Assembly: GCF_022458985.1 (NCBI RefSeq)
Contig: NC_061771.1
Location: 19,231,501-19,295,500 of the forward strand
Source of the DNA: Mugil cephalus
Lineage: Eukaryota; Chordata; Actinopteri; Mugiliformes; Mugilidae
DNA: 64,000 bases
Reading direction: 5' to 3'
Part shown: positions 4,401-31,961 of the stretch, piece by piece
Layout: every line of letters begins with the position of its first letter
Position numbering within the stretch: the stretch's first letter is position 1
Notes under the pieces: model-generated
Told to the model about the DNA's origin: nothing
The model's database searches: none
The model's input: only the letters and a program-made list of their open reading frames with translations
Program-made: the position numbers and the translations under genes

Positions 4401-6278
4401 GCTGGGATCTGGAGTACAACAAGGTAAGGTCAGCCTTTACACAAAGTTTGTGGGCAGGAGGAGGAAAATGAAATTGAGTCGTTTAAAAAAAAAAAAAAAA
4501 AATCATAAAGGTCATAAACCGGAAGTTAAACTTTTGTGGTTGGTGTACATTCAGGTCATCAGGCACTACCACGGTCACCTCAGTGCTGTATATGATTTGG
4601 ATCTGCATCCCACCATCGACGTACTTGTGACGTGCAGCAGAGACGCTACAGCAAGGGTAAGATCCTGATCTGCATATCTTTTTTCAGATTTAAGGATGAG
4701 AAACTGTCCTCGCATTGAGTTATCTGGTCAGATTTTCATTGTTTATATGGTTAAGAAGGATCGAACGAAAGCATTTAAACAAATCTGTAAAAATTAAGAA
4801 ATTTGATGTTGGGCTAATCATGACGTTTGTCTACCTTTTCAAACACATCAAGCAGTGTGGTTATGGTGTCTTGTGTAGAGGCTGTAGTTGAGCATGTGTG
4901 TCTCTGAGCATGTACCAGGATAAACAACTGGATTTCACTGTCCATACAGGTGTGGGACATCAGGACCAAAGCTAACGTGCACACACTCACCGGTCACACC
5001 AACACTGTGGCTACAGTGAGATGTCAAGCAGCAGAACCACAAGTCATCACAGGTAAATATATATAATTAAATCTAAAAGCATCATCTAAATATTTGCTTT
5101 AATCCCCACAGACGTACCTGTTAGTTGTCTCCCCGCTGACATATGTGACTGATTTTCTGCAGGAAGCCACGATTCAACCATCAGGCTGTGGGATCTGATC
5201 GCTGGGAAAACTAGAGCCACTCTGACCAACCACAAGAAGTCTGTCCGAACTCTGGTGCTGCACCCGAGACAGTGAGTAGACAACATCAACGTGTAGAAAG
5301 ATGGAGGAACCGTCAAGAGGCCATTCAAGACATATTGTTTGATACAATTTTCAATGTGGTGCAGAACATTGCATTCCTGACTCCTAATTACTACATTCAT
5401 GTTGTAAAATAAATAATTATTTTCTAAATGTTTTGCAGGTTCTTTCAGTTTAGGCACTAGGGGGCGTTAATAATAAAGATGTAATGTAGCTAGCGTCACA
5501 GATCTTTCAGAATATGTTTACTGTTGCAGTTTAGTCCTGTGTAGAGAAACAACATAAAGACTTAATCTAGGCTCTGGAACCTGTGATAGACATGAGAGTC
5601 ATATTTAGGATTATAGAATTACCTTCGGTTGTTCCAAATCAATTAAAGACTAGAAGTGACGCGTTATTCTCTTATTTCTCAGATACACATTTGCCTCGGG
5701 ATCCGCCGATAACATCAAGCAGTGGATGTTCCCAGATGGCAACTTCATCCAGAACCTGTCGGGCCACAACGCCATCATCAACACCCTGGCTGTTAACTCT
5801 GACGGCGTCTTGGTGTCTGGAGGTAAAACTAAACGGCTGCATTTGACCATTATCTTCACTCAGGTTAAGAATCATCGGGGATTCGTCTCACGTTTTTTTT
5901 TTTTTTTCTTTTCCCCCCGTGCTCTGCAGCGGACAACGGCACCATCCACATGTGGGACTGGAGGACGGGATACAACTTCCAGCGGATCCATGCGGCCGTG
6001 CAGCCCGGGTCTCTGGACAGCGAGTCGGGAATCTTCGCCTGCATGTTTGACAACTCGGAGAGCCGACTGATCACCGCAGAGGCCGACAAGACCATTAAAG
6101 TTTACAAAGAGGACGACACCGCTGTGAGTTACACATTTATATTTAACGTGTTTTGTATTTTTCCTCTGCTAAATCCCAAGAAGCAGATAATTTGACAACT
6201 GTGTTTTATTTCCTGCAGACCGAAGAAAGCCACCCAATCAACTGGAAACCAGAAATCCTCAAGAGAAAAAGATTCTAA
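1441..6278 (+). CDS. plrg1: pleiotropic regulator 1 (spliceosomal WD40 protein)
   Basis: PLRG1/Prp46 is a core subunit of the nuclear Prp19/CDC5L spliceosome complex, needed for catalytic activation. Fifteen exons: 1441-1449, 1655-1761, 2546-2682, 2833-2886, 2967-3060, 3177-3267, 3427-3525, 3616-3708, 4274-4423, 4555-4656, 4950-5052, 5163-5271, 5683-5822, 5930-6123, 6219-6278. Together they give 513 residues (human PLRG1 is 514). The N-terminus has the family block [20 protein letters not shown] and later WHPPWKL. About residues 195-500 hold seven WD40 units, with clear signatures such as [20 protein letters not shown] and [15 protein letters not shown]. The C-terminus ends in KRKRF. The first exon encodes only M-T-E, so its placement rests on the Kozak context and a good donor. 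All introns are GT-AG. Confidence 0.97.
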
Positions 6279-6431
6279 CCATTGTTTCTTTTTGTTTTTT
6301 TTCCTCTTGTCACAGTAACAACTTACATTGTATTTTTACTGACTCTTGTAGTAGATATGCCCAGCAATTCTCATTTGCTTTAAAATATTACGGCGCCTCT
6401 AACAGAAGCAGCAACAGGATGATTGCGCGCG

Positions 6432-8965
6432 TTATTCTAAAAACCATCTGCAGTCCTCGCTGTATGACGTTAGTCCCGTAAAGTTGCCGTGTTGAACAGC
6501 CAGGAACAACCCGGAGTGTTTGTTCTTGATGACAACGGCTCTCTGATGGCTCTGGTCACTCTGGTCCACCAACAGAAGCCACTTCTCACACTCAGAAGGG
6601 CAGACTTCAGAGTGGACCTGGTTCATATTGGCATCAAATCCTGCAGCAAAGAAAGAAGACGGTGTGTTTGAAAATATTCTTTTTCTTTTTTGTTTGTATT
6701 GACTCAGATTTGCCAGTTGTACAGATGTGGACGTAACTGTTCCTCCTTTTTTTCTGGCTTTGCATTTGAATAAAGACCCACATTTTTTCGACCCCCTCTT
6801 GTCTCAGAGTGTCTGTTCTCACCGAGGTATCTGCTGGTGACGGCGTTCCTGTAGTACTTGCAGGCTTCGCCCTTAATCTCCTCCCAGTAACACTGAGCCC
6901 CGGGCGTCTCGCTGAGATCCACCGGGTTTCTGCTGTCGCCACGCGGCCGGATTATCTGCTCACCTGTGAGGTTAACATGTGGTTGACCACAGTTTGGTCA
7001 TCAGGAGTGCGTTTGACATTTAAGTGTCGCAGAAACAAAACAAAAAATATATACTCATAGATACTAGACTCTACAAAAAAAAATCAAACTTCAAAGTTTC
7101 GGCATCTATTACTGTTTTATGAAATCAGCTTTCAGATGAAAATACAAATCCCAGATGTGTTGCTATTGGACAAACATTTGGGTTTGGTTGGAATTTTATG
7201 ACAAATATAGATCATACTCTTCTTACAGAATAAATATTGGATTTAGTACCAGATCCCAGATCTCCATTGGTAGCATAATGGAGAAGGCTGCTAGAAAACA
7301 GTAGTATTGTGTTTGTGCTGTAATTCCCTCTCAAGTATGTTAAGTTTTGCCTAACTGCTCCATTGAAAGTGTCCATCCTTGACCTCCTGAGAGCCGAGCT
7401 TTTGCTTGGTCTGAATTTTTTATTCTCCACGGTATTTGGGATTAGTAGCACCATTTTTGAACAGGAAGTAGTAGTTGGAAAAAAAAAACTATGTCCTGAT
7501 ATTATTTATATTATAATAAAGTCACCCATATAAAACTATTTATTTTAATTGCTGAACCTGTCTGAGCAGAGACAGATGAAGTCCCAACGTCCTCAAACGA
7601 ATACTTGCTAATTAGCGACGCTGTGGCTCGTTGCTCTTGATAAAATATGGTAAATGTGCGTCATATCAAACGAGAAATGCTAATAAGCATAAATAAGTTT
7701 CAACCGTTCAATTATGTTTTCCACCTCGTCCACATTTGTCCTGTGATCACCTGTGGAATGAACCCACTGTCCTGTTTTTATATTAAGTAGTGTCTTGACG
7801 TTTTGCTACCACTAGATGGCAGACTAAAGCATCCACTAATGAGGAGAGTGGGGTTAAATGAAGCAGAATAAGCTGCGATAAAACCTAAAACTTGGAGTCT
7901 TGGTTTTCTACAGCTGCCATTATTTCATCCATAGACACGACAGGACTTGTGTTTTCTGTGATTCACTTGAACTGATTCTTTAAGCCACAAGGTTCTGAGT
8001 GTTTTGTTAAAGTGTTAATCCTGAAGACCTCCACCTATAACAGTATCCGGACACTGGATCCACCCTCAGTCTCAGGCAGAAACCCTGTTACTACCTGTGC
8101 ACGGCTTGTGGTCTTGTCACCACAGACATCCAGTTTCTAACACTGAGTTACTCTTTATGTTATTTCATCCTTTCATCCTTTTAAACCTCACTCATCAACA
8201 GATAGTGGCAGATGTGTTCATGGAAAACAGATCCTCTTCCTGCTTCCTGTCTCCGTATCCATACCTGAGTCATGGATGTAGAGGTCAGAGAGCGCGTGAC
8301 GAAAACCTCGACCGGGTTTCTTCTTCAGAACAGGTTTAGCTGCTTCTCCCTGGTCCACCTCCTCTCTAGGAGACTCTTCGACTGTGAGCAGGTGACCGGC
8401 GTTAAACATGATCTCCTCCTCCAGAGACCTGACACACTTGTCAAAGTTCTCTTCGTCCTCGTCTGCAATTCTAGGAGGAAACAGCATTAACAGCGTTTAT
8501 GAAATCCCTTAATCGGAGAGAAGAAGGCGTCACATGTCCTCTTCATCCTCACCTGAAGTCCACCCACAGCAGGCCTGCAGTGATCAGCCCCAGCCACTCG
8601 CTGGCCTCCCACTCTTTGCTCAGCATGATCGGCACAATGATGACCTCCCTCGTGTCTGCATAGCTGAGCTCTTTCTTGCAGCTGCGTGAGGCCTGGTAAG
8701 CCGGAGTCATGACCGGACAAATCACCACAGCCTCCTCCACGCCTGCAGCCATCCTAAAACCACACACAGCTTCAATAAAGTCACGCTGTCCTCGACGAAG
8801 ACTGGACGCCAGGTCTTTTCATACTCACGCATCGTTGATGTTCCCTGTCACCCCTCCTTCGATATCCATCCACACGGGCAGGCCGTCATCTTTCAGGCGG
8901 TCGTATATCTTTTTCACAAGAGCCTGGTCATCCCACTGGTAGGAGAGCATAATATGGGATGGCAT
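6432..8965 (-). CDS. TIR-domain protein with C-terminal beta-trefoil-like repeats
   Basis: Five minus-strand exons (8829-8965, 8553-8753, 8265-8470, 6823-6963, 6432-6640), all GT-AG and frame-consistent, encode 297 residues. Residues 4-113 form a TIR domain: HIMLSYQWDDQ (strand A), VWMDIEGG (BB-loop region), MAAGVEEAVVICPVMTPAY, then SRSCKKELSYA and IIVPIML. E74 in KKEL sits where SARM1 and plant TIRs keep their NADase glutamate; Toll-like receptor TIRs lack that function. Residues 114-180 are an acidic to basic linker. Residues 218-297 hold two repeats, starting YYRNAVTSRYL and VIKNKHSGLFL and each ending with Trp, which resemble beta-trefoil units. No signal peptide or membrane segment is seen, so a cytosolic protein is inferred. 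The start is uncertain: an in-frame AGG AAA CCT (AAA)6 precedes the ATG, and an acceptor at 8993-8994 could join an unseen upstream exon. I do not recognise a gene symbol. NAD cleavage and an immune role are inferences. Confidence 0.85.
6769..6774 (+). terminator. candidate polyadenylation signal for plrg1
   Basis: AATAAA lies about 490 bases after the plrg1 stop codon and is the first canonical plus-strand signal I noticed downstream. If used, the plrg1 3' UTR would run antisense across the whole last exon of the neighbouring TIR gene. It could also be chance, since AATAAA is common in AT-rich DNA. Confidence 0.4.
7371..7895 (+). repeat. dispersed repeat family A, copy 1 (intron of TIR gene)
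   Basis: It shares several ordered blocks with the reverse complement of 41225-41615: CCTCCTGAGA, GAACAGGAAGTAGTAGTT, GAAGTCCCAAC, CGTCATATCAAAC, TTTGCTACCACT and GGCAGACTAAAGCATCCACT. The two copies have opposite orientation and differ by indels between blocks, so this is an old interspersed element. No coding capacity is seen. Limits are approximate. Confidence 0.75.
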
Positions 8966-8989
8966 TTTTTTTTTTTTTTTTTTAGGTTT

Positions 8990-10283: not shown

Positions 10284-13200
10284 ATGTGCAAGGGAGGAAT
10301 GGCTCGCAAGAATGCCTCGACGTCGCTCCTCCAGACGCTCGTCCTGTCGCTGCTTTGCGCGCACTCACTCGGGCAGGTCTTCAACCTGACGCTGTCCGTC
10401 AAGGAGGGCCTGCCAGCCAAAACCATCGTTGGAGATCTGGGAGCGGGGTTAAGCAGACCGAGCACCGGGTTCTTCATCTCTGAGAGCAGGGACTCCTACG
10501 TGTTCCGAGACTTGGAAATAGACGCAGACACCGGGATCATCTCCACGGCTGTGATCCTGGACAGAGAGAGCAGAGATAAGTATGAATTTGTGGCAGCCAC
10601 CCTCACGGGGGAGATGATCAAGGTGAAAATAGAGGTGGAGGATGTGAACGACCATTCGCCCGAGTTTCCCTCTGAGGTGGCTGACGTGGAAATATCAGAG
10701 TTAAGCCCACCAGGGAGTCGCTTTCAGCTTGAAGGCGCCGAAGACAAGGATGAGGGGGAGCTCGGTACCCAGGGGTACAGGATCACAGAGAAGGAGATGA
10801 GCGAGTTATTCCACCTGGAGCACCGCAGTGGATCTGAGAACCACCTCAGCCTGGATCTGATCCTCAATAACAAACTAGACAGAGAAACACAGGACTTCTA
10901 CTCGCTGACAATTGAAGCCTTCGACGGTGGGATCCCAGCCAGGACAGGGACTCTACGGGTGAACGTCCACGTTCTGGATGAGAACGACAATCCTCCTGTC
11001 TTCAACCAGACTGAATATCACGCCTATGTGCGTGAGGATGCCCCCACGACGTCCGTTGTGTGTCAGGTGCACGCCATTGACCTTGACCTGGGCGACAACG
11101 GTAGGATCACGTATGAGATCAACAGGCGGCAAAGTGACCCCAGCGAAGTGTTCTCCATCAACGAAACCACAGGTGTGGTTTATCTCAACAAGCCGCTCGA
11201 CTTCGAGACTCAGGCCTTTCATGAGTTGATCATCAGCGCGAGAGACAACGGGGCACAGCCGGAGTACAGCAGCACTTTCGTGAGTGTGAAGGTGCTTAAT
11301 ATCAATGATAACAGTCCCTCCATCAGCGTGCTGTTTCTCAGTGAGACAGGGGACGCGGTGGTGTCGGAGGCAGCAGCCATTGGCGACTATGTTGCCCGGA
11401 TTTCAGTGTCAGATCCTGACTTTGAGGAGGAGAGAGTCAATGTGGAGCTTGAGGGGGGCGATGGGAAGTTTGTCCTGAAGCAGACCGATGATTTTCTGTA
11501 TGCTTTGTGTGTCCACTCTGAGCTGGACAGAGAAGAGACGGATCTGTATGAGCTGAAGGTGAAAGCCTCAGACTCTGGGAGCCCTCCTCTGAGCAGTGAG
11601 GTGGTCTTCCTCCTGAAGGTGTCAGACACAAATGACTGCCACCCCGTGTTTGAGAGGGATGTGTACACCATACGCATTGCAGAGGATGCCCCACAGGGGA
11701 GCTCCCTCATCCAGTTTCAGGCCCAAGACGCGGACGAAGGCGTCAACTCGGATGTCACGTACTCCATCCTGAGGTCCAACCAGGACAGCCTGATCAGCGT
11801 TGACCCACAGTCGGGCCTCGTCACCACGGCCGCGTCACTCGACAGGGAGACGCAGATGGAGGTGTGGTTCCTGGTGGCGGCAGTGGACGGGGGAGAACCG
11901 GCTTTGTCATCCACGGCTACAGTCACTGTGCTGGTGGAGGACATCAACGACAACGAGCCAGTGTTCCTGCACCAGCTGTACAACGTGTCCATACCAGAGC
12001 ACAGTGACCCTGGGAGCTGCTTTCTACAAGTACGTTGGAGGATAGTTAACATCAGGCATCAAAATATAGGATTTGTGCCGTCAGTGATATACTCAGGCAC
12101 ATACGTTGGTTTTAATTTTTTTCCTGGTTCTTTGCGATGGATAGTATCTTCACAAGCAGTTTTGGAGTGAATAAAAATAAATGAATCAGGAGGAGAAGTA
12201 GATGTGGTGTGGTTATAGTAAATATATAGTAAATTTTTAAATTTATAGGCTATAAACTAAACTGAATATCCATTTCTGTCACGTATCTGCAGGGCTCGAC
12301 TTAAGTTAAATAAAGAATTCATAATTAGGATGAACCACATTCACATCTTTGGTTCATCTCTGCAGAATTCTATAATTCTTCCTGACAATGGAATTAAATC
12401 ATCCTCAACATCTGGGATTTACAACTCGTCAGAGGATCAGTTTAAGTACAGTTGACAATAGTAATGGAGCAAATTGTATTCTTCTTTCTACAAAAAATAA
12501 TTGAGTCTGACATTTCTCGCATTTTTCATTTATCCATCATTGAAGTTAGATTGATATTAAACACTGCAGGAAGACAATCACATGTGCATCTGCTGCGTTT
12601 TCCATGCAGATCATCCGCCACGTGGTGCTCCCTCTTTCCCTCTTGTCTCGTCCGCCTTACGTCACATGAGACAAAAGTAGCCTTCAGATTGTTTGCACAA
12701 AGGCATCAGTGTTCCTCCTGAACGCACGCAATATGCAGCCTCTCCAGGCCGGCGCAGCGTAGCCTTGATATGACAGATGTGATGCCTGGTACCGCAGTCG
12801 TGCAGCCTGGCACAAACTGAAGCCCCGCTACAAAAGGAGTCTTATTTTACAGACTTTTTGTTTTTTATAAACACGAACGAGAGTTGAACTAGCAATGAAT
12901 TACAGTCACTGTTTTGTTTTGCACGAGAGGGTACAGCGCACCTTGATACAAGCAGCAGTAACTGGATTGACTGGGAAAGCATCCATGTCAAGTGTAATCA
13001 GACAGATGCAAATTAACCAATGTGTTTCTTTAAAGAGATAAATGAAACACGTTGTATTCTCAGTAGTGAAACTTTGCTTCCATTCAGACCTTGACCTATG
13101 TCTCCAACTTCCTCCGATCATAAACTGTGAGGTGATATATCTTTATGATGAGAACCTGAACACTCTCTCTGTAAAATGTACCTGCAGTCAGACATGAAAG

Positions 13201-16200
13201 GAGATCAGTCCGATCTAAGGTGTGTTTTTACTGCAGCGCTGGTCGTCTTTTTTTTTTTTTTTTTTTTTCCACCGATAGTGCTCACCCTTTGATTGTGGGG
13301 ATTGTTTTTATGCTTTTATTGTGTTGACCTTCTCTGGCGGCGTAACGCTACTGCTATGATTCATAAAGGTGCCACGAAGGTTAAAAATGTAAAGGAGACG
13401 GTGCGCCGTTTAATAACAGACGCACGGGAACACTGTATCATTTTATGAGTCCCTGCGAAATAAAGTCATACATAGTTCTTTGTTAACTGAAGAGTAAAAT
13501 GTGAACGTTACACATGTGAAAACGGAGGAGGAGGCGCTTGAGACTTTTAATCTAAACAATTATTAAATTAATGAAAATAATCCACTGAAAATAGCAACTA
13601 TGTTTAGAATTGGATTAATTTACCAGGCAACACAATCTAATATGAGAAACTAATATTTTCTAATATTTGTCAAAAAGAAATTGAAGCACAACTTTCTTAT
13701 CTTAAAGTAGTAGTAGTACTAGTACTAGTAGTAGTACTAGACTCAAGAAAATCTGTATTACTTCTACACTGTAAAACGTTCCAGTCCCATAAAGTCATAT
13801 GAACATTTTTCGACAAGTGTTGATACTGAATTCAATTTAATAAGTTTTCAAATCTTAAACTTAAAGTCACCCATCGTCTGTGTGGCCAGTGTTAATTTAT
13901 TCATCATTTAATTCTCATGTCTTCAAGTTTTGAGTTGGAGAAACTGATGGGGGAGGAGGAGGAGGATGTGATATGATATGAATACTGGGAAATATAGTGC
14001 CTTCCATCATTTTTGCATTTTTTATTTTAATTAGAACTATTACTATGAAATGGAGATACCTTTGAAACAAGGCTCTACACAGAGGATTCAACTACTGTAT
14101 TACATCAGCAAAAATAAGCATAATGTACAGGTGAATTTTAGAGAAAGTTTCCCAACCAGGAATAAAAAGTAGCTGTTTTCAATGGGTCGCTTTTTAATTT
14201 AAACAGCCTAAATAAAATAAATGTGAAATTTCGGAACAAACCAGATGTTAGTTGAATCTGTCTGTGGTTTAGGTCAAACTTTAAAACTTGCCATTAGTCG
14301 TCAAGATGAAGTAGAAACAGCAGTGCTCCCGACTGAGAATGACACAAATGATATGAATACATTCGTATCGTTGGAAATGTTATGGAAATGTTAATATATA
14401 GTTAATATAGTGAGGAACTGTGAGTTCATTAGACAAGAGTAAATGAGTTTTCATTGGTGGATAATGAATGAGTTAATGAATGAAACAACCCAATAAGTTG
14501 TATTAACTCACAGAATCAAGTTGAATCAATAAATAATCATTAGCTATAAGTTATGAGTTATGAATTAGTTATGAGTTTGAAGGCAGCAGATGACATTTGA
14601 CATAATGAATGGAAATCATTCAAACGATCAGCACCACAAATGACGAGACAGAGAGTCCCGTTGCAATTCACAGCGGAAGATCATGATGATGTCAGTGGGG
14701 AATCGGATGAAAGTGAAAATGAAAGTGATTACGTCACTGCTCATGTAAAAAGTACACATTTAATCAACTTATTAAGTTACGTGATGATCACCTGTTGTTT
14801 TAGGAGAAACCCAGTCATGGCAGGATGATGCTCTATATGAACAAGAAGAACTCCTTCCACTCAGTAGGAGTTTGACATCCTCCTCATTAGATGTGTGGAA
14901 AAGATGTCTTAACCCATGCCCAGAAACAATAATGAAGATGGGACATTACCTACACACAGGTTGTTGAATAGTCGTTAACTACTTTGTTGCCCTTAAACTC
15001 TCCATACTCTCGTTTTCAGGTTGTCGCCACAGACGCAGACGGCCCTGACTTCGGCACGCTGCTCTACTCGCTCTCCGATGGCTTTGACAGACAAGACCAA
15101 CACCCCCTCTTCCAGATCCACCCACACACCGGAGAGCTGTGTGTCTCAGAGGACATCGATCGGGACACGGGACAGACGGTCCACGACATTCTGATCAAAG
15201 CTGAAGATCCGGTGAGTCGGCCGTTCCTCATGAGTGATTGACTCTGACACGCAGATAATAACTGTCTCCCTGCACCATTTGACCAAAACTTGGTCTCGTT
15301 CTGTTCCTTTGTTCCTTTCAGGGAGGCCTGAGCACTCAAACCTACGTGCACATTGAAATAGAAGACCTGAATGACAACGCTCCGGTGTTCAACCCTGAAG
15401 AGTACACCGTGAGCATCAGCAGCCATGCGCAGCCCGGCACAGAAATCGTCAGCGTTATCGCCACCGACCGAGACTCTGGCAGGTTCGGACAGGTCACCTA
15501 CGATATCCTTCCTGGAGACATGTCCAGCTTATTTGCACTGGATAAGCAAACAGGTGAGACATTAAGGTACAGCTGGTTTAATAGAAATGAGCAGAAATGA
15601 GGGATTTGGGAGTTTTTTAACTTCTGGAGCTTGATTTGCTCCATAAAGCTGCTGTGTGGTCTTTAATTACCTTGTGTGACTTGTCAGTTCCTGTGTTCCG
15701 GGATAAACAGCTACTTAGTTTGTGTAATTCCCCGTGATATGATTGGCAGCGTCACCGCCCAGCGGGGGTGATGCACAAAGCCCAAAAGCTTTAGATCCCC
15801 ATGTGGCTGAAGGTAAGATCAGATGTGGGCTCAGCCACAGGAAAATAACCAAGTTTATGACATATAACATTTTAAACTGTTTCCAAAAATTCTACCTGCA
15901 CATGAATCAGTTTCAGGAACAATCAGAAAAGACAACTTGATGATTTATTTATTTATTTATTTTTGTTTTAAAGGTGAAGAGTTTTTTTCTCACCCACGTT
16001 TTCTAGCTTGAAAGCCAGACTGACTCCCCCCTACCATTCTGTCATGGGGTTTCATTCTTAAGCCTTCTGTCATCACAAGCAACTGAACAGATTTTAAGTT
16101 GGGTCAAATTAGAAAATATAGTCAGAAAGAGTAAAAAAAAATGTGTACTTACTGCTACATGACATTTTTTAGACCTTTCCCCAACTTTTGCTTCTTTTTA

Positions 16201-18302
16201 AAAGAATATTTAATTCTGTTACAGCTGCAAATAATGATATTTTCATTATAAAATGTGAACCTGATATTAAAGAATAGTATAATAGTAATAGTATAAACAA
16301 TGTATAAATAATAAATGTATAAATTAATAAAAGTAAAAATGTCAATTTATATTGATTAATGAGTCTTGGTCCAATCTAAATTTTTCAAAACAAGACAAAA
16401 AAAGATAGAAATCCTTCATGAAGTAGGTGCTCATGAAAACATGACCCTCCTGTGGCTTGAACTTAACCCGAGCCCCTCTGTCCGTGCAGGGATGCTCTTC
16501 CTGACCTCCACTCTGACCCACCTGGGCGAGGCCGTCGTGAAGCTCTCTGTAATGGCTCGTGATGGGGACGGCTTGACCTCCGTCAGGCCTGCACAGGTCA
16601 CCATCAACGTTCTGCGCAGCGCTCAGGCTCCAGCTGTGTTCCAGAGGTCACGCTACACTTTCACGGTGCCTGAAGACGCCCCACTGGAGACGTCCGTGGG
16701 GACGGTGGAGGCCATCGATCCCACTGGTTAGTGTGCATCCACTCAGAAATCCTGTTAAACCACACGTTTGCACATTTCTAGATTATTTTAGGTAGATGCT
16801 CATGTTAATAATACGAAGTTCTCCTTAAAGTTACATTTAAACTTAGCTGTATGTAGCTGACTCCTATTGTTGTCGATTCAGTAAGTAACTGAGCTGATAT
16901 CCTGATCTAAATGTGTTCTATTTGTCACACTTAGTGCAGATTTAGTGCATTACAGCCTCTTATATTTGGCTCTCAGGAGTTTGATTATAGGCGCCGGATT
17001 CCGCCCACAGTTCACACAGACTTACAGACAGATTTACTCCAGCTAAACTTAAATGAACTCTTAATCTTAACATTTTTGAAAGAAAAAATAATAACAATTT
17101 GGGTGAAAACACTCACAGGAAGTAATATTTTAGATGAATAAGATGCATGTTAATAGAATAAACACTGTGAGCAGGTAGTGTGGGATAAATTAAATGATGT
17201 TAAAGGATTATCTTGAACAATAAAGTAAATATCGAACTCCGAACGGTTGTTGCAGAAAACCTGACAAAAACAAGAGGGCGGTCGCTGAAATCTCCCTCCA
17301 GACATGAAGAGGCGAGCGGTAAAGAAGAGCAGTTAATCTCTAATCTTCTTTAGCCACATGAAGACATAGCACATAATAAAAGGCCAAAGACAGTTATACA
17401 ATATCTGTCATAGTCCTCATCATGGATATACACATAGACCAGGGATTATTAAAAGTATTTATATTTTTATATGGTTTATTTTTATTATTTAAACGTTTGT
17501 GAAATTTATTGATCGCTGGCAAATGTCATTTTAAACCCTGGACATTATAATTTATGATTTGTGTTCTGGGTGATCTAACACTACGTCTCCTCTCTGTGGA
17601 GAGTTTCTCTTTCTCGTCTTCTCGTCTCTTACTCCACCGACCGTTTTCAACCCCTCTGCTACTCTAGACAGTCATTTAAGGCTGTGTAATCACTGAGCAG
17701 ATTAACGCTTCAGTTTAAAGCTGAGACAATAGAACTGAGCCGGTTTGACAGAGGTTGCCATCCCTAATCTCCCTGCCTGTTTCAGTGGTTTTTAGTTACT
17801 GTTGAAGTGCAGCCAACACTTGGAGGGGATTAAGTGGATCTTCTGACCTGTGCTGTAATTACTTGAAGTTGCTTACATGTGTGTCCGTGTGTAGGAGAAA
17901 GAGTGATTTGTGTTAGCATACAGGTACAATAGTGGGGTGTGCGATTCTCTACCTCATTTATATCCTATAACGGGGGTCTTCAACGTTTTTCAGGCCAAGG
18001 AACCTTTAACTGATGGAGAGATTAAGTAGGGGCCCCCTACCTATTGTATGTGGTCTACAATAAATTCAGCCTAGTGCTATTTATAAATATGGATTATTAT
18101 TATCATTTTGCATTCAATATAAAGCTATTTAGATAATACGCAGGTTCAAATATTTTTTTTTTTATTTCAAACATGTGCAGTAATGTTTTCTGACTCCATT
18201 TATCCCTTTACTAAAATATGTTAGACTCATGTTAATGTGTATTTAAAGACATTTTAATTTGTGGGAGAAAATGGTTGGAGAAAATTTAAAAATAAATAAA
18301 TA

Positions 18303-18347
<45 letters not shown>

Positions 18348-21300
18348 AGTAATAGTAATAATGTCTAATTGATCAAAGATGTTGCGACCCCTCTGCAGTA
18401 CCTTTGCAGATGAAGACCTATGTCCCTTTACATTTACCTTATTACATGAGAGCTGTTATTGTTTAAAGCTACAGTGCAGAGGTTTTCACCGCCCCCTTCT
18501 GGCAGAGAGGGGTATTTCTCAAACACTGTGGATGCTGGATGCAGTAGCCTGTGTGTCTACAGCATCTCAGTCTCTAATGTTATTTTTGAAGAAAAGACAA
18601 CTTGATTATTTATTTATATACAGGCCATAATAAGTTTTTCTCCATTTCCTAGCTTTAAAGTCAGACCACCTCCCCTTTACCACTAGTTTTTAATGTCAAA
18701 ACTAAATGTGTGCTTCAACGAATTGTTGTTTCTTCACAGCCGCCGTGGAATCTGTATCTTACCGTATCTCTTCTGGAGACCCTCAGGGTTTGTTCTCCGT
18801 TCACCCCAAGTCCGGTCTCATCAGCAACGTCAAACCTCTGGACCACGAGTCTCAGCCGTACGCCCTGCTGGTCCTCCAGTCCTACACCGACGCCTCCCCC
18901 GTCTACAGCACCACCCAGGTCAACATCACTATAGCTGACGTCAATGACAACGCCCCCGTCTTCCCAAAACGCAGCGATACCGTCACGGTGTCACAGAACA
19001 CTGTGCCGGGCACGGTGCTGTTCATCGCCCACGCTCACGACTATGACAGCGGTGCCAATGGGAGGTTGCAGTATTACCTGGAAAGCAGCACCAATGGCAC
19101 GTTTGTTGTTGACCTCAACCTCGGGACGGTTACATTAAATCAGAGCTTACAGACTGATCACCAGCACAGGTACAGCCTGGAAATCGTGGCTAAAGACGAA
19201 GGGGAGCCTTCCTTGAGCTCCACCTTGACACTCACAGTGAATGTGGACCGAACAGCTGCAGAGGACGGCCTGGCCTTCGAGACGTTGGTCTACCAGGTGG
19301 AGATTGGTGAGGGCTACCGGAAAGACTCCCGGGTCATCCAGGTCAGGGCGCACCGGACACGTAGCGCTCACATGTCCAACTCGGGCCTCACCTACTCTTT
19401 AGAGGCGGAAGCTGGGTTTTCTCCTGCTCCGTTTCGAGTTCACCCCAAGACCGGATGGTTGTATCTGTCCCACAACCTCGACTACGAGACTGAGTCCAAT
19501 TATCGCTTTCGGGTGTTGGCCACTGCCAGCGAGGCCTCACTGGCGAACGCCACAGCCACAGCCACCGTGATAGTTCTGGTGCTGGACATTAATGACAACG
19601 CCCCGGTGTTCAGCAGCGAAGTCTACTACTTCAGTGTGTCTGAGGGCTCGTCGCCACAAGGCCTGGTGGGAACGGTCAAGGGCCTCGATAAGGATTCTGG
19701 GAAAAATGGCCAGCTGTCCTACATCCTGCTCTCAGATGGCAAATTCTTTCGCATTAATTCTAAAACTGGTAAAGACGAAACATTTACAACGACAAGTGGA
19801 TTAGGTGTGCAGCCGTGCATCCTCATCTTTTCTCTCTCATCTCATATTTTTAGGCGAAATCATCAACTGGGTGGCGTTAGACCGGGAGCAGCACAGCCAG
19901 CACAGTCTGAAGGTGATGGTGACGGACCAGGGTCACCCTCGACTCAATGCCACCGCCACCGTTCACATCCTGATCACCGACATCAACGACAACGCTCCGC
20001 AGTTTACACACCTGCCGGCCACCAAAGAGCTGAACGTGCGGGTGAGAATGACTTCATCACTTCATCACTTCCTTTCAGACCACCACATGTTCTGTTAAAG
20101 TCTGAAGCTGCTGCCACTATGAAAAAGAAGCAGAGCGTAGATTTAAGCTAACCTGACACATGTGAATTAGTCCCAGTTTATTCTTGATTTCAATGGGCGG
20201 AAACCAGAATGACACTGGGGGGGGTGTCCCTGTTATCCCAGTGGAGATGAATATACTGTAGGAGTGGAAATGCAATTCCCCTACCTGCATTTCAAGGCAT
20301 ACATCTCTTCACTGCAGATCTGGGCTGATCTTCCAGCAGGATCCCTGGTGACAAACGTGTTTGCCAAAGATTTGGATGCAGGAGAGAATGGAACCGTTAC
20401 CCATTCACTGGTCACAGGTGAGGTGTAAACGTGCGTTTTGCAGTATGAGATATTTAATGTGTACCGTTGCGCACCAGTTAGCGATAAGTGCCTGAGTTTC
20501 ACCACCTTCCACGTTTCTGTTCGGCTCATTTAGAAGATGGGGATCTCGGACACTTTGAGATCGACGGTGACAGCGGAGACATCAGAACAACGCAGCTTTT
20601 TACCCAAAACGCTGAACCGTACTACACTTTGAAAATAAGGGCCAAAGACAGCGGGGCCGTACCACTAGAGGACACTGCAGTCATTCACATACAGGTAGGG
20701 GTGGCGCGTGCCCTCCAAATAATCACTGTGACAGGTTATAGAGGCACCTCTGCTACGAGGAGGCGTATTTGTCTGAGATTCAAATATGAGGCTTGAAATT
20801 TAGTTTAGGAGACAGTGAGCACAGAGATTTGCTTCCTGATGACAGTGAATTCAGAGGGAAAAGAGAATGAAAGCAGAGTCAGATGACAGATCCTGGCAGT
20901 GTGTCCAAGATCTTGGCAAGAAAATCAAACAGACTGTTCATGATTTACAAAATAAATAAAATTATATTACAAAGAAAGACTGGAAGAAACGACAAGATGG
21001 ACAAACAAGCAATACACGACAAAAGTTAAACTCATAAAATTCTTGAAGGAAAAAAAACGATAGCGGATAATTACTGAGGTCATGGATCAGAGTTCAGCTC
21101 CCACAGCTTTCAACACATCACTATTATATTAGGGTACATTTTTTATCACTATATCTACTTTGGTTCCAAAAAAAAAAGGTAAAGACATTCTCATTAGTTA
21201 GCTTTAAGTTTAGCACCCAAGCAAGAGATTTATGTATTAATTTATTTTTGTGGTAAAAATGTAATTTTTTATTTATTTATTTTTTACTCATGTCGATAGG

Positions 21301-24300
21301 AAGATATTTTCTTTTCTCAAGCTGAACCATGTGATTCTGATTGTGATCTTTTTTTCTTCATATATCAGTGACTTTCAGTGTTTCTGTACCACTTTAAAGC
21401 GGCCCTAAAACCAAACAAATGACATTCATGCTTTTTTCCCTTCAGATTCATGACCTGGAGGATCTGTACGGACGCTCCAACCAACAAATTCTCCGTCGTT
21501 TTTCAGTGAGGGAGGACACGGAGCCAGCGACAGTCATCGGCTCTGCCAGCGTTTCGGACAAAGGCAGGTTTCACTATTCCATCACTGAGGGCGATGGGAG
21601 CGTTCACTTCAGTATTGACGGCTCTTCTGGGGACATTTATGTCAACCAGCCGCTGGACTACGAGGCGGCCATGCAGTACTTTCTCCTGGTTCGTGCCGAG
21701 GATGTGGGCGCCCCCTCTGGTGTCAACGTGTCTGTGCTGGTCAGTGTGATAGTGGAGGATGTCAACGACCACACGCCCTGGTTCCCGGACAAACTGGTGA
21801 TGTTTGGTCTGAGAGAGGACGCTGCTGTGGGCTCACAGGCGTTTGCTTTTCACGCCAGAGACGCTGACGGGACCTTTTCAAACAGTGCCCTCCGCTACAC
21901 CCTGACCTTTGACCCCGAGGCCAGCGGGTCACTGTCACGCTTCCCCTTCCAGATCAACCCTTACACAGGGAGCCTGACCGTGACGGCACCTTTAGACCGC
22001 GAGAGCACCCCCAGCTTTGCCTTCACTGTAAGTGCCACGGACCAGGCCAAGAGGAAGGAGGAGCGCAAACAGGCGTCGGTGACGGCTCAGCTCTTCCTGC
22101 TAGACGTGAACGACAACCGGCCGGTGTTTGTGTCAGCAGACTCGGCTCAGGTGACGGAGGACGCAGAGGTGGGGAGTCTGCTCCACCATTTCGTGGCAAT
22201 AGACGGAGATCAGGGTGAGAATGGGGTCGTCTCCTTCTCCATCGTGGCCGGAAACAAAAACGGGTTCTTCACACTGGAGGAGAAAACAGGTATTCACAGT
22301 TTGTCTCTAAAAAGGAGATTTAGATTCTGAACAAAAAGTGGCAGAGCTATTTTTTTTTTGATGGTGTTGATTTGTTTGGATTGTTCACAATACTTTGGAA
22401 CCTTTATTGTTGTAAAAAGTTGCAGTGTACAATTTAATTCTTAGTTTGTAGTTTTATTGCTGTCACACATTCAATGCAATCCAGATGTTTTACTTCTGCG
22501 CTTTCCGTTTACAGCACCAGAATATCAGTCAGAACTGGCCTAAAAGTCTGAATGATCTACATTTACTGACTCAGAAATCAAGCCCACGAGGCCCCTTTCA
22601 ATCTTTATTCTCTCACCACTTTGCCATTTTCCGTAGGTCTCTTGTTCCTGTCGGCCCCTTTGGACTACGAGACGCAGCGTCTCCACCGTCTGACCATCCG
22701 TGCGGTGGACAAAGGTCTCCCCGCGCTGACCTCCACCCAGACTCTGACCGTGGAGGTTGGGGATGTGAACGACCAGACGCCTTTGTTCAGTCAGACCGTC
22801 TACAACGCCAGCGTGGCGGAGAACAGAGACCCAGGAGAACCCGTGATCAGGGTCTCTGCCACCGATCAGGATTCAGGTAAATATGATCAGATATTTATAG
22901 ATATTAATGGAATAGAATAGAATACAATAGAATAGAATAGTATAGAATAGAAGTACTGACATATATACAAAAGCTATTGATTGCAACAAAAGTAATTGAA
23001 TTGCAAACAGATAGGGATTGTTGGTTACTGTACATGACAAGATAATAAGCTAGTCTGTAGATGAGGTATAAGATGAGGCAGTACCCCTCCACTGTGCCTA
23101 GATGGCAGCACTAGCACGTGTCCTTGAAACCCCACCGTCCTCAAACCATTTAAATCCACATGTGACACGTAGAAATAAAATAAACCTCCCAAAATCCAAG
23201 CTAAGACCTTTTCTCTTTAAGCAGTAGTACGACAGTCTGTGCTTATTATCTTTAATGCATAGTCCCACATGACTAAATACAGCTGAGCAACAGCTCTCCC
23301 TGCCATGTTTTGGTTGAACCTCAGGTCTGCTTACAGTCAAGGTTATCACGAGGTTTTCTTTACTCCATTAGCAGTTTAACTGAAACCGTATCCCCCCGTG
23401 CGCTGTTGTGTCTTTTCCGTGCGCTCTGTTCATTGTGCATCCCACCAGATCTCATTCATCTGACCCCTAAATCTCATCCACAAATCTGCACATCATCCCT
23501 GTTTATTTTAACACACCGCGCACGGGGGCCCCCTAAGTCCCGGTCCGCCTGGTCATGTTGACAGTAGGAGTTTTTTTTAAATGCTGGAGGTAGAGGGAAT
23601 GTGACAGGAGGATCTGTACAGGAGGGGTGTTAATGGGAACTTACATTTTTTGGGGGTGAGAATTGTCCAAGAACAGCAAGCACACACCTCCTCTGGGAGA
23701 TCTGAAAGGTCCTCTCTCAGGATGATTTCCATAACTCAAGCCACCTGTGCCAATAGGCGCCTTGTTTTCATCAGTCTCTTCAAATCGGCTCATCTGGCAG
23801 CTCGGCTTCAGCTCAGCTCGCACTCAACACCGCTCTTATTTGATTATCATTTGTGCTGCTTTCTTTTTTTTTTAACACAAATTCTCACTAAAGACGAGCA
23901 TCATTTTTGGGCCTGTGTTGGCACCATAGTTACAGTCAGTCACAGGAGACGATCCTCGATTTCGCTTTGCTGATTTGTTAGTTGATCTGTCTTTAGGATC
24001 ATAAGAAGACAGATGCTATTTTATTATTTAGAGCAAAGTTCAGACCTTGGAACTCAGTTTATGGTGACATCTTTCACCCAGTCAGCTTAAATTAACAACG
24101 ATGTTAGTACACAAATGGGAACCACAAAGTGCACAAACACTTCGTAGACACAGTCTCCGTCAAATTCTAAAATTAAGAGTAGACGTCTTGCTCTGTGACG
24201 CATCTCGGTAGTCATGAGCGGTCACACGGCACGATTTTAAGACTTTAAAAACACCTTTTCTAGTCGCGTCTGGACCCAGTTTCATTGCAGAGCCACAGGC

Positions 24301-27300
24301 AGGAATTCTACATTGGCCAGGTTGGTTTATTCAGACGTGACAACAATACACAGTTTCTCACAAGTCCAGAAACAAAGTGAAACACTCCAGAGAAGCATCT
24401 GTTAGCTTTCACTGTGGCCGTTTCTTCAGCAGACAGCGGTGATGACAGTGAAGTCAAGTCGGCTCTAACGAGTCGACTGAAAAGAACTGCTTTTGTAACA
24501 CTCCAGTAATTTATTATCCATACTTACACTTACAGTTTCTGTAGAGGTCTTCGTCCAAGATAATTGTCCAAAATAATGCAACACATGCATAACTGTGCTG
24601 CAGCTGCTGGGAAACAACAAACTGTCTGTGTGTAACATCGAGGCGAACCTGTTGTGTGGTTAGCAGTAGAAGAACCATGTAAGCTGGAGACAGCCGAGGC
24701 TCAGAATAAGGCTTCTCCTCTGCTGTTTTGCATTTTAAAGACGACACGTTAAGTCTTGCATTTATCCTCCCTGTCATTCAGTTCTGAATGAGACATTAGG
24801 AAGAGGACTGTCTGAAACAGAAGCAGCCATAAAACATGAACTCACTCGAACAGACGCTAAGCGTCAGACTGACGGACTGTAAATGCACAAACTGAAGCAA
24901 TACTAAAGTTTTAGGATTATTTCTCTTGTAAGTAAATGTATTGCAATGTGCAACTTTGTATAGACCGATCAGGCATAACATTATGACCACCTTCCTAATA
25001 TTGTGTAGGTTCATCAGAGAGTGGACACGGTCCTTCTGAGGGTGTTAGTGGGGGTCTTTGGGTCCTATGGGTTTAGGGAGGGTCCTCTTTGGATCAGGTG
25101 TGTTCCAGTGCATCCTACAGATACTACTACTGCTACTATTGAGTGTCATTACTATGGGGGGGCTTGCATGGTCTGGTCTAGGTGGGTGGTAAATGTCTAA
25201 GTAACAGCTGCATAAATGTCAGGTCCAAAAGTTTCCCAGCAGAACATTCTGGTAGGGGTGGGAAAAAATATCAATATGTCCCAATATTTTTTTCTTCCAA
25301 TATAATATTGATTTTGAATGTTTTAATATCAAGACAAAAAGTCACAGTCCACCACCACTTTTTCTGTAAATGGAACGAATTATCACTGTCATCTGATGTA
25401 CATATATACAACGTGTATTTTAAGCTGCATTTAAAATGTCTCAGTGAACTATGTAGAATATGACAGTATATCGCAATATCATAATATCGCAATATCGTGT
25501 TGTGACTCAAATATCGTGATACGTATCATATCACCCCGACATTGTATGGTCAATTTTATTTACTTCTCCAGTCAGTGGAGAATTATACAGTACCCATATG
25601 TATCATATGGGTACTGTATAATTACATTATTATTTATATTACCCTGTGTGTTCACCTCCCCCCCTTCAGAGGAGAATGCCGTGGTGTGGTACAGTCTGCT
25701 GCCAGGTACCGGCTACGAGCTCTTCAGCATCAACCCATACACCGGACTGATCACCACCACGTCTTACCTGGACAGAGAACAGCAGCAGCATTATACTCTC
25801 AGAGGTAGGACACATGAGCAAAATATAATCACAGATGAAAACCTGTTCAAAACTTTGTTGTTTAGTTGTTGTTGTTGTTTATTTAAAAATTCTAATTTAA
25901 GATGGGAGACATACACAGACCGTTCATAGAGGAGGCTCTCCTCTAAACGTTTCAGGCTGAATGAAGCGCCGGGGAAAATTAGCAATTGCGCAACATCATG
26001 CACTAAAAGTCATGGTTTTAATAATATGAAAATTAAACCATCATCTCATAACTGCAAGATGTAATATGTCATTGTGCTGATTTGTCTTACTCAACTTGGA
26101 AGGCGAGCAATTGATTGATCACTAGCTTATTTATTTTTTTATTTGATTTTATTATTAATCATATTGCAACATCAGTGGGAAAAAAGGAGTTGGGAAATGT
26201 TGGAGATAAATACCTAAATTAACCAGAAACTTGTTCTGATATGTCTGATTGTTGCACTGCGGTTTAATGGGAAGGATTTACAGCTGACCGTATTTAAAGT
26301 CAAGCATCTGTAAGTGTGTTTGGGTCAGTTATTTATCTTCAGTTACTCTTATCGGGGTGTTCTGGGGAATCATTTTTAAAATAAAATCCCCTTTGATGTG
26401 ACGTTTATAATAAAACCTGCCTTTTGATTCTTTCCACCTCACAGCTACGCATTTCAGTCAATAAGCGTCTCAGATCTACCTACTAAAGGCACATATAGAT
26501 ATCAAAGACTATCTTACATAGATCCAAACCAGATGAAACAAAACGTATAAAGTGGTTTTCTACAGTTTCGATCAAACGCGGACATTTCTTTCGTTCCCTG
26601 CCCCTTTCTGTTTCTCATTCTCTCTCATTCTCTCGCATGTCACGCTTCACCGCTCAACTCATAAAGAATTCAAGGTCCGCCTTCCGTATAAAAGCAACAT
26701 TATTCAGCAGGTTGATTTATGTTAAGGAAACAGAGGACTTTTAAAGGGCTGAGCTACAGTATATATCTAACCTCCGCTGACTGCGCTGCTCCAGCCTCCA
26801 TCGACTCAAGTGTTTGCTTTCGCTCTCACTTGGGTACACACAGGAATTACACTCAACCTATTCAGCAGTGTTTAGTGATGAAACTGCTTTCAGATGTTTT
26901 GTCATAATATTTGTACAGTTGCCAGTATGATGGACAATTAAGTCCAACAATAAAATATAATAACAGGAAAGGCTAAACTTCTTGATGTCGGGCCAAACTC
27001 ACACAGGGCTTGTTTGGAAACACTGAAATATGTGGAGACAATTTTCTCTGGCTGCAGATGAATTTGGAAAGAAATAAAATACCACATTCTTTTCAGCACA
27101 TATTAAAGGCTGTCTGTGTATACTTCATGTTGACAGGATTATTTTTTCTTTTTCATTCTGTGGAGTTTGCGCTGCCGTTAAAAAATCTAATCTTGCCTCG
27201 GTCTATGGTGAGCAGATGGTGATCGGAGCCAATAATTGCTCCACTGCTGTGCTTTCAGTGACTGTCAGTCAATCGGTTCACCATTTTGGCCCAGTTTAAA

Positions 27301-30300
27301 ATATAATAAGTCTTAAATAGACAGACACTAAATCTTCTACAGGCATTCAAGTTGCAGAGGCAAATGACGAAAGTCTAATGACATTTGCATCACATCTGCA
27401 GCTCCAGCTCGTGTTTAGTGCCAGTTTGCAGATGGTGACATTGTGGTAAAGATGGTGGTTATGGGAGATGTTTTATTTGCATTTTACTATCCAATGTGCT
27501 GATTCTGCACTTTGACCCAGTGAACAGAAGCAGACAAAGACATGCGTGTTCTTTCAGCCCTGTCCAAACTACCGTAATCTGTCAGCGTAGATAGAAGATG
27601 AGCCCTAGAGATGTGGAGTATTTTCGATGCACTATAGCGGCATTCAAAGGTCTAAAGTCTTGGTTGTGCTATGAGGTTGCCACCTTGGAGCTTCTCATTC
27701 TCAGTATTTATAGGGTTTGAATATAGCGAAGGCGCAATGAAGACACAATGCCAAAAACATAATCTAAGGAAAGGATCACAGCTTAATAGAGTCTGCAGCA
27801 AAACATAAAAATGTGCACAGAAGTGTTTAAATGCTGTGAATGTGTGCAGGAAAAGAAAGCGAGCACTGACTAAGCGTGAGCTCCATCTGATCTCTGTTTG
27901 CAGTCCAGGCCCGTGACAGCGGCGCTCGGCCTCTTTCCAGCACAGCGACAGTGCTGTGCTCTGTGCTCGATGACAACGACAACCCTCCAGAGTTCATGCA
28001 GTCATCGTTCCGAATCAGCCTGCCAGAAAACCTTCCTCCTGGGGTCGTCCACACCGCTCAGGCCTCCGACCCGGACCACGGAGAAAATGGCACCATATTC
28101 TACTCTATACTAGGTTAGGAACTCTCACACGGTTCTACATATCAAGTAGTGACTTTTCATTGTGACACAGCAGCTTGAAAATGATCTGTTATAAATATAG
28201 GTCACAGTTTGTGACACCGATCTACCATATGTAGCACAGCTGTGCGCATATAGTTCTTCTGCAAAGTTTTGATAGTCTAAACTATTGGCAGTAAACATGT
28301 TTGATTGCTTGTGGTGAACTGAGACAAGCTATGTACTGAGTTATTAGGAAAGTACCACTTCACCTTAGCTGGTTAAACTTTTTGACAAAGCTATAAAAAC
28401 CTTCTTCACTCAGTGTTCCTTTAAATCCACTGTTATCGTATCTCTGAATGTCTTCAGGTGAGGACTACCGAGGTCGGTTCACCATCAACAGTCACACAGG
28501 TGTTGTCAGCACCACGCAGGTTCTTGACCGGGAGGAAACTCAGAATTACACCCTCACCATACAGGCCCGGGACAATGGTTCCACTCCACTCAGCTCCTCC
28601 ACACAGCTCCAACTGGTGCTGTTGGACCAGAATGATAACATCCCCTCCTTCAGCCGCAAGACCTATCAGGCCTCCGTCAGCGAAGGTCTACCTGCTGGAG
28701 CTGAGGTTCTTCAGGTTGCTGCCTTTGATCCTGACGAGGGGTCCAATGGGGATGTGACGTACTCGCTGACAGAGGACAGCAGCCAGGGTGCCTTTTCAAT
28801 GGACGCCTTCACGGGAGTGATCCGCACCACCAGGACTCTGGACAGAGAGACCAGGGCTCAGTACACCCTCAGAGCTGTGGCTACTGACGGCTGCACTCAG
28901 GGCCCACTGAGCTCTATGGCATCAGTAACAATACAGGTGGAGGATGTGAACGACAACATGCCGGTCTGCGACCAGAATCCCTTAAACGCCTGGGTTTCCA
29001 TGAGGACTCCGCCAAACCAGATCGTTACCACGGTCATGGCAACAGATGCCGACCAGGGTGAGAACGGAACGGTTCAGTTCGCGTTATACGATGAGGAAAA
29101 TCTGTTCGACATCAACACTGAATCCGGAGACATTGCTCTGAGAAGACGAGTGAGAGCGGGCTTCTCTGGGAGGAAGTTGCAGGTCGCGGTTTCAGACCGA
29201 GGGCATCCCGTTCTGACCTCCACCTGCCTCGTTTTCATCCATCTGAAGGGAGAACATGAAGGTCTTCAGTTCACAAATAAAGTGTACAATGCCACCATCA
29301 AGGAGAACAGCAGAGCTGGTACGATATACCACTTGAATTCCTGTTTTTCCCTCCGATATCAAATAATAACCTCATCAGTCTGTTCACATTTTTCTCCAGG
29401 CACTTGGATTGCGAAGGTGGAGGCCAGCGACCAAACTAACAGCAGGCAGAGAATCACATACACCATATTTAGTGGTGACGAAAACCACATTTTCTCCGTT
29501 AACCGACACACAGGTAATCACGTTTTGCTTAATATTTGCTTTTGTTCTCTTCCCTTCGATTCAAAGCTGTGTAGCAGATGGCAGTCGTGTTAGGCATTTG
29601 CAGGAACATCATGCAAGCTTTCATTACTTAAATTTTCCTAACTTCACAAATTCCATTGCACTCATCCATTTTATTTTCCAGAGAAATACCCATAAAATTA
29701 CTGTCGAACCAATTAGACCCAACTGTGTGGAGGCACTTTTTATTTTTTTGCATCCGTCTTCATACTATCCCTCAACCTTATCTGTTTCATCTGGCTCTCT
29801 ATTTTCTGAAGACGTACGACGTATTGTATTTTACCCAAACTCTTCTTCTTGCATTCATGTCTACAAAGTTAAAGACAAAGTTTGAAGTGGGACAAAATAC
29901 CGCAAGAACCGCAACATGCAGCTTCATTGAGAGTCATCAAAAGTTCTGTTTTTCTTTCCGCTACTTTAACTTAATTTCCTTCATTTAATAGAGAGAAACG
30001 ATTAAAGAAGTCTGACAACAGTTGGCCTTTTAGGTTACCTCTCTGTCAAGTGTGCAGCTCTTCATCTAACAGCTCACTGCTGCTTCTCATCCCATTGCTC
30101 CCTGCAATTATGTCAAACTGATGTCAGAAAGTGACAAAAATGACCTGTTTTTTGATAAACAATAGTGGTAATGGACTCATTGCATGTGCTGTGACTTTCT
30201 TCATAATAAAAGTCAACACTTGTAATGTTCAGTTTATATTAGTGACTATATTGGAATCCATTAACTGTTGGCACTTATTCTGCAAATGCTGCAAAAGACG

Positions 30301-31920
30301 TGATGGCAATATATAGTATAGTGATATAAAATTATTTTATTTAATAAAAACCTTTGAGACTGGCACTTTAATATTACAATTTGTAAAATATTCTTCAATT
30401 TTCACGGAGTCTTCCCTCTTACGTAGGCGAGATCCGAGTGCAGAAGGACAACTCTCTGGACTTTGAAGTGAGCCCCCAGATCCAGCTGGTGGTGCTGGCT
30501 GACAACGGGCTTCAAACGGCTCACTGCAGGGTCTCCATCACCCTGCTGGACGTCAATGACAACCCACCGTTGTTTGAACACAGCAGCTACAGAACAGCCG
30601 TCTGGGAGGGTCAAGTACACAACACCTACATTATGCAGGTAAAGATAATATTTAATTATTATTATATTACAGCAACACAATTGGATTTATTTTGATGACA
30701 CTGACCACCTCACGTATTCTGAACAGGTGTTTGCGTCCGACGCCGACAGCGGTATGAATGGGCAAGTTGAATTCTCCATCCTGTCCGGTAACTATAATGA
30801 AGCATTCATTTTGGACTCTGTGAGAGGAATCCTCGCCACGAATGTTTTGTTGGACCGTGAGATTACTCCCTCGTACAAGTACGTTACATTTGTAATTTCA
30901 CTAATGTGAAGTCAACTTTTATCGCCTGCCTGGTTGTTTTGTCTTTGGTAAGAGGATGTTTCGAGACATATGTATTAGTTTGAATTAGTTTAAAATGGAT
31001 GTCAGTTACTGCTGTGTGTGACTGTGATATTGTAGGGCCACTGCTTACATGCATTTTAAATAGCAGCAGTATTATGTTTGCAGATGCATGTGTGATTTCT
31101 ACAAGACTCGTGGTAATTTATGCAATACATGAAGTTAGTAAATATGTAAACGCTGACTGTGCAGTACTTTTCTATTGCAGGCTGGTTCTGCAGGCGGTAG
31201 ACAAAGGAAAACCTCCTCTCAGCAGCACCGCCACCGTTAGAGTCCAGGTGGTGGATGTCAATGACAACAGCCCCGCAATCCCACCCATGGACCCCGCGGT
31301 TATAGCTGAGAGTAAGCCTCCACCCTAGTAATTGATTTCTTTCACAGTCTCGATTAGTGATAAATTATTCACTGTACAACACGATTTAAATGTGACTAAA
31401 ATACGTTTTTTCCACTTCCCAGATCTGCCAGCAGGTTACGTGGTCACACAGGTGACCGCTAACGACGTCGACCTGAGCCCAACAATCACCTACAGCTTTT
31501 CAAACAACAGCAGCACCAGCGTTCCTTTTGCTATTGACCGATACACCGGCGTCATCACACTGACTCAAGCCCTGGACTACGAGGAGGAGACGGAGTACGC
31601 TCTGACAGTCTGGGCGTCTGACTCCCTCCACCAGACATCTGGAGAGGTTAAAGTTCAAGTGCTTGATGTCAATGACAACGCCCCAGTCTTCACCCAGGTC
31701 TCCTACCAGGTACACAGAAGTCATCTATCAGTAAATAGGGAGGCAGCATTTGCAAGTTGTATAAATTATTATTGTTCTGTCATAAGACATGAATAATCAT
31801 TACGTAATGCGAAGTAAAAATGCATGTGTCTAACTCAGTGTGTCTTTTTAACTACAGAATTTCACGAGTCAAGTGTCTTCCTAATGACTTCCTACCTAGA
31901 AATAATAGCTATTTGATTGC

Positions 31921-31961
<41 letters not shown>

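Follow-up and report, generated by a model that had tools for sequence, protein, structure and literature searches.

An intact TIR-domain gene of Mugil cephalus with a possible NAD-cleaving function and a putative beta-trefoil tail

A small TIR-domain gene in the fish Mugil cephalus raises the question of whether an enzyme of this kind exists beside SARM1 in vertebrates. As of 2020, SARM1 was described as the sole metazoan TIR with known NADase activity (PMC7075850), and a 2026 preprint draws attention to uncharacterised, overlooked clades of eukaryotic TIRs, stating that routine model organisms encode clades 1, 4 and 8 only (PMC13142454). A compact fish gene with some features of enzyme-class TIRs would lend itself to activity assays and to knockout in a laboratory fish, and such work would show whether non-mammalian vertebrates retain a further route of TIR-based NAD signalling. 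The gene lies in a stretch of 64,000 nucleotides (G000:C2:19231501-19295500), analysed as a whole and referred to below as the window.

The gene runs on the minus strand from 8965 down to 6432 and consists of five exons (Table 1) that form a single open frame of 297 residues, with introns of 75, 82, 1301 and 182 bases that are GT-AG throughout. This model, including its end coordinate, had been proposed in an earlier sequence-only reading, and it was recovered in a splice trial that allowed GT or GC donors and AG acceptors up to 15 bases from the guessed exon ends. The trial produced six combinations with a full open frame, one of them being the proposed model; in four of the five alternatives exon 2 is translated in a frame other than that of the TIR, and the fifth uses a weaker donor and truncates the TIR at its end. 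The Pfam profile TIR_2 (PF13676) matches residues 5-125 of the protein (E=2e-22; 80.4-82.9 bits vs a curated cut-off of 28), where a TIR domain had previously been placed at residues 4-113, and because this match bridges the splice junctions at codons 46 and 113, both the splicing and the domain are far beyond chance. The open frames of the five other combinations speak for gene decay or an incorrect exon model; with all exons open, no departure from GT-AG and a strong domain match over the junctions, such an explanation is very improbable, and the TIR gene is real and intact. Immediately before its start codon, on the coding strand, stands a run of 18 A residues (8966-8983). Inspection of the protein by eye gave no evident signal peptide or membrane segment, so a cytosolic location is reasonable.

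Table 1. Exons of the TIR gene and neighbouring features in the window
Feature	Position	Strand	Remarks
Exon 1	8829..8965	-	Codes for residues 1-45 plus two bases of codon 46, from the start codon through TIR beta-A to the BB loop; carries Y9, D34, G41
Exon 2	8553..8753	-	Remainder of codon 46 to part of codon 113; TIR alpha-B to alpha-D region; carries S70, C71, E74
Exon 3	8265..8470	-	TIR_2 match ends (residue 125); helix 119-140 in a model of low confidence; charged linker; tail domain begins
Exon 4	6823..6963	-	Tail domain; putative trefoil repeat 1 ends and repeat 2 begins; repeat test negative
Exon 5	6432..6640	-	Tail domain; remainder of putative repeat 2, then repeat 3, stop codon
PLRG1 3' end (WD40 protein)	5700..6278	+	Limits by eye; tail to tail with TIR gene
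Giant Dachsous-type cadherin gene	10284..36787	+	Head to head with TIR gene; open frames 10284-12170 and 34157-36787 tested
Secreted frizzled-related gene, open frame	57240..57788	+	Pfam Fz 2.5e-32; best PDB chain sizzled

The gene appears to be present once in the genome of 634.8 Mb in 24 contigs: the whole protein returned no second copy at E<=0.001, and the tail, searched at E<=10, gave a single extra match on contig C9 (E=0.18, 32% identity, two stops) that was judged to be due to chance. Among its neighbours, PLRG1 is identified by 65 residues from about 5930-6123 that match Pleiotropic regulator 1 chains with E down to 2.6e-39, and the stop codons of PLRG1 and the TIR gene are ~150 bases apart. 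Poly(A)-like hexamers at 6769 (plus) and 6205-6210 (minus) each lie within the span of the opposite gene (region 6205-6774), which suggests that the two transcripts may overlap. The two open frames tested from the cadherin gene match Pfam Cadherin at 1.9e-83 and 6.1e-69; we take this gene to be DCHS2 and the frizzled-related frame to be SFRP2. Presumably, then, the gene order of the window matches the order SFRP2-DCHS2-PLRG1 of human 4q31, where PLRG1 and DCHS2 are not known to be separated by a TIR gene. The same contig carries, ~217 kb from the TIR gene, a further TIR gene (L009) that we take to be TLR2-like.

Profile searches place the protein apart from the TLRs. The TLR-type profile PF01582 gave no match to it at E<=1. 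The fish SARM1, located on another contig (C9, L024) and presumed to be SARM1 from its TIR, scores 55.3 bits with TIR_2 and 23.9 with PF01582, and for two of the genome's TLR TIRs the PF01582 scores (71.8 and 75.8) exceed those of TIR_2 (65.2 and 61.0). The preference for TIR_2 is not peculiar to enzymes, because a membrane TIR (L006) has it too (72.5 vs 56.6 bits), and the view that TIR_2 is too broad for classifying a TIR (PMC13142454) limits its use here as a class marker. TIR_2 is the sole Pfam match over cut-off: none was obtained to a death domain or another adaptor module, to the LRR, Ig or death-domain partners of the TLR/IL-1R/MyD88 class, or to the ARM repeats and SAM domains by which a SARM1 orthologue would be recognised. 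In PADLOC, the top match of the protein is a SAVED-TIR model (1.8e-7 to 3e-7), which also leads for SARM1 (2.4e-10). For the TLR TIRs (L007-L009) and L006, the PDC-S66 model ranks first, with L006 reaching the SAVED-TIR model weakly as well (0.0044), and ThsB models match each of the seven scanned proteins to some degree, the TLR TIRs weakly and the protein under study at 9.5e-6. Taken together, the Pfam and PADLOC differences from the TLR TIRs are modest.

Comparison of individual sequences is less clear. Pairwise BLAST does not discriminate and, if anything, favours a TLR2-like TIR (E=0.007) over SARM1 (E=0.15). In a tree of 25 TIRs over 120 columns (the query, six other fish TIRs and 18 bacterial ones), the query falls outside the fish TLR clade, in which L007-L009 group at 99-100 and are joined by L006 at 80, and pairs with the bacterial L045 at a support of only 71. 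Its identity to the 24 aligned reference TIRs is 9-22% over aligned columns, with SARM1 at 15.7%. A search of the PDB with profile A1 retrieved chiefly TLRs and SARM1 and was set aside as uninformative on the query, because these are themselves rows of A1. By its profiles, the gene is best described as an intact fish gene for a TIR of non-TLR profile type, and the earlier reading of the protein as an enzyme is supported in part: the lack of a PF01582 match and of an adaptor module agrees with it, and the better BLAST match to the TLR2-like TIR than to SARM1 counts against it. The same BLAST result favours a non-enzymatic scaffold, in which the TIR does no more than assemble with other TIRs (e.g., those of MyD88 or TLR2-type receptors) and the protein, localised or regulated by its tail, acts as an adaptor or a decoy; the missing PF01582 match at E<=1 and the absence of a death domain or adaptor module over the Pfam cut-off argue in the opposite direction.

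Residues of the active site bear on both possibilities. SARM1 numbering was mapped from the mutants and forward primers in PMC8266388, where E642A, D594A, G601P and Y568A are reported to lower SARM1 activity, and where all examined mutants, W638 and H640 included, lose 100- to 2000-fold in kcat/Km. In the alignment of the 25 TIRs, whose 18 bacterial members were drawn from 19 found in a single phylum sample, Y9, D34 and E74 sit in the columns of SARM1 Y568, D594 and E642. E74 was found within SRSCKKELSYA, as the sequence-only reading had it, but the step taken there from E74 to catalysis fails, because this glutamate is common to most TIRs. According to PMC7075850, it occupies the catalytic position in >70% of all TIRs and in above 90% of TLR1/2/6/10, and its frequency need not correlate with activity; in the present alignment, it occurs in 15/18 bacterial TIRs and five of the six other fish TIRs, including all four TLR or membrane TIRs. 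On this comparison E74 is required for the idea of an enzyme but says little, and its presence in the TLRs speaks for a scaffold.

D34 is a better clue to the enzyme class. Aspartate is found in this column in SARM1 and 15 of the 18 bacterial TIRs and in none of the five TLR, TIRAP or membrane TIRs of this genome, which counts against a scaffold, and its combination with the glutamate is seen in SARM1 and 12/18 bacterial TIRs, again in none of those five. D34 and the SAVED-TIR match in PADLOC lend an enzyme-class assignment modest, separate support. The positions of SARM1 W638 and H640 are S70 and K72 in the query, and the serine counts against catalysis and in favour of a scaffold; tryptophan stands in the W638 column in all six other fish TIRs and in only 4/18 bacterial ones, so that W638 is perhaps no strict requirement. 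G41 aligns with SARM1 G601 in one alignment, whereas the column shifts in the 25-TIR alignment, where glycine is present in 1/18 bacterial sequences. The C-x-x-E-x-x-Y-A pattern of the query recurs in two of the 18 bacterial TIRs (L031, L033) and in 0/6 other fish TIRs. A seventh fish TIR (L016), aligned separately, has none of the residues of the D34, E74 and W638 columns. On balance, catalysis by this TIR is possible and somewhat favoured, and a scaffold retains a considerable, though minority, probability. Base exchange and cyclic-nucleotide reactions have been reported for some plant TIRs, and an enzyme of that sort, with NAD+ cleavage as a minor activity, would fit the low identity to every reference TIR and the changed W638 and H640 positions; since nothing positive indicates any particular chemistry, it is rated quite improbable.

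The C-terminal tail had been read as a tandem repeat with a beta-trefoil fold. The repeat did not withstand examination, as the alignments of the three putative repeats were equalled by 383, 1062 and 680 of 2000 shuffles. The fold fared better in one respect: the best Pfam match of the tail alone is RicinB_lectin_2 (E=0.016), albeit sub-threshold at 16.3 bits vs a cut-off of 25.6, and none of nine shuffled tails had a Pfam match at E<=0.1 (best 0.13). The next match is Cys_rich_VLP, an unrelated family (E=0.07). Because the trefoil was proposed from the sequence alone before this match was obtained, its credibility is raised. Ricin-type beta-trefoils are defined by QxW in their repeats, and this motif is absent from all three putative repeats, which have CYW, EKW and CRW instead. 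In the PDB, the tail has two weak matches, namely HA-33 (E=0.55), which we take to be a trefoil lectin, and chain 6xv2 ('p1'; E=0.17, or 0.43 with the whole protein), the latter rejected as not significant. AlphaFold run without an alignment gave a mean pLDDT of 38.0 for the 297-residue protein and 36.3 for the tail alone, and the full-length model has a TIR-like order of strands and helices at this low confidence. A different beta-rich domain, compatible with any reading of the TIR, would account for the sub-threshold profile match, the non-significant repeats, the missing QxW and the pLDDT below 40, but the best Pfam match being to a trefoil family, the behaviour of the shuffled tails and the appearance of HA-33 weigh against it, and it is considered unlikely. 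The tail thus probably has a beta-trefoil fold, which is a plausible lead, and the likelihood of canonical ricin-like sugar binding is low.

Under the favoured interpretation, which stands only a little short of an even chance, the gene would encode a cytosolic, possibly NAD-cleaving TIR of the bacterial/SARM1-like class that is regulated by its tail and activated by clustering, the tail serving as a beta-trefoil-like sensor. The protein may be a soluble enzyme in which a charged linker joins the TIR to a C-terminal ligand-binding module. The tail could bind a ligand that becomes accessible on damage or infection, such as a glycan, a lipid or a protein partner, and ligand binding would cluster the TIR domains. 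In the clustered TIRs, E74 would act as the catalytic residue of NAD+ cleavage and D34 and G41 would shape the BB loop, yielding ADPR or a cyclic ADPR isomer as NAD+ falls. A broader proposal, tentative and rather doubtful, is that SARM1 is not the only catalytic TIR of ray-finned fish. The second one, lost in mammals and encoded between PLRG1 and DCHS2, would be a small cytosolic sensor of the kind used in bacterial defence, which would cleave NAD+ and carry a trefoil ligand-binding module of its own.

Known systems resemble the protein in part. SARM1 likewise has a TIR_2-type TIR, keeps the positions of D594, Y568 and E642 (and of G601 in one alignment) and shares the top PADLOC model, whereas its ARM and SAM domains, its W638 and H640 and, by inspection, the intron positions in its TIR differ. 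Bacterial defence TIRs, represented by the SAVED-TIR and ThsB models of PADLOC, yield weak but significant matches (1.8e-7 and 9.5e-6); unlike them, the query is a eukaryotic multi-exon gene. The ecTIR-DC families, reportedly the work of Gerdol et al. in 2017, offer a comparison by description. They too are non-TLR TIR proteins, widespread in invertebrates and, as far as the account in PMC6321704 goes, apparently absent from vertebrates. Group 18 of Toshchakov and Neuwald (2020), again compared by description, is a mixed set of protozoan and metazoan TIRs with varied architectures, to which bony fish and early chordates (lancelet, Ascidia) contribute 13% (PMC7075850); the word trefoil is absent from the main text of that study. 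This group is presumably where a fish TIR would fall that belongs to none of the receptor, MyD88, TIRAP, TRIF and SARM1 groups. The nearest two-domain analogue encountered is Arabidopsis PP2-A5, which combines an N-terminal TIR with a C-terminal, presumed carbohydrate-binding domain and has a link to defence. This plant protein may be compared only in the way it works, since the lectin portion has the beta-sandwich of PP2 rather than a trefoil, and its TIR catalysis and sugar recognition are described as uncharacterised in PMC12355970.

Relatives were sought in several collections. Plasmids yielded none by tblastn at E<=0.01. Back-translated patterns made from the single sequence, which reach close relatives only, matched 25 stretches of viral contigs and 26 of prokaryote genome contigs, none confirmed as a relative. 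A three-motif DNA pattern occurred in no viral contig and in one genome contig, whose frames contain no TIR by eye; this was regarded as a chance match. One of 296 genomes of one bacterial phylum matched at E<=0.001. The best PHROGs match was at 0.12, and in NCBIfam Thoeris ThcB4 (0.036) and FxsC (0.058) were both far below cut-off, with none for the tail. A published description of this gene, or of any fish TIR-trefoil protein, was not found in the open-licence literature. It is probably one of the fish TIRs counted without description in published surveys, and we assume that fish genomes annotate it as an uncharacterised TIR protein.

Other TIRs of the genome show features of their own. L006 (G000:C10:20412607-20415936, minus) is a 428-residue open frame with a TIR (TIR_2 5.5e-20); after the TIR come two hydrophobic stretches that, judged by eye, probably span the membrane, and L006 has no evident ectodomain. 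L012 and L013, two TLR-like TIR exon frames of 68 residues located ~33 kb apart on opposite strands (G000:C14), are identical, which suggests a recent inverted duplication.
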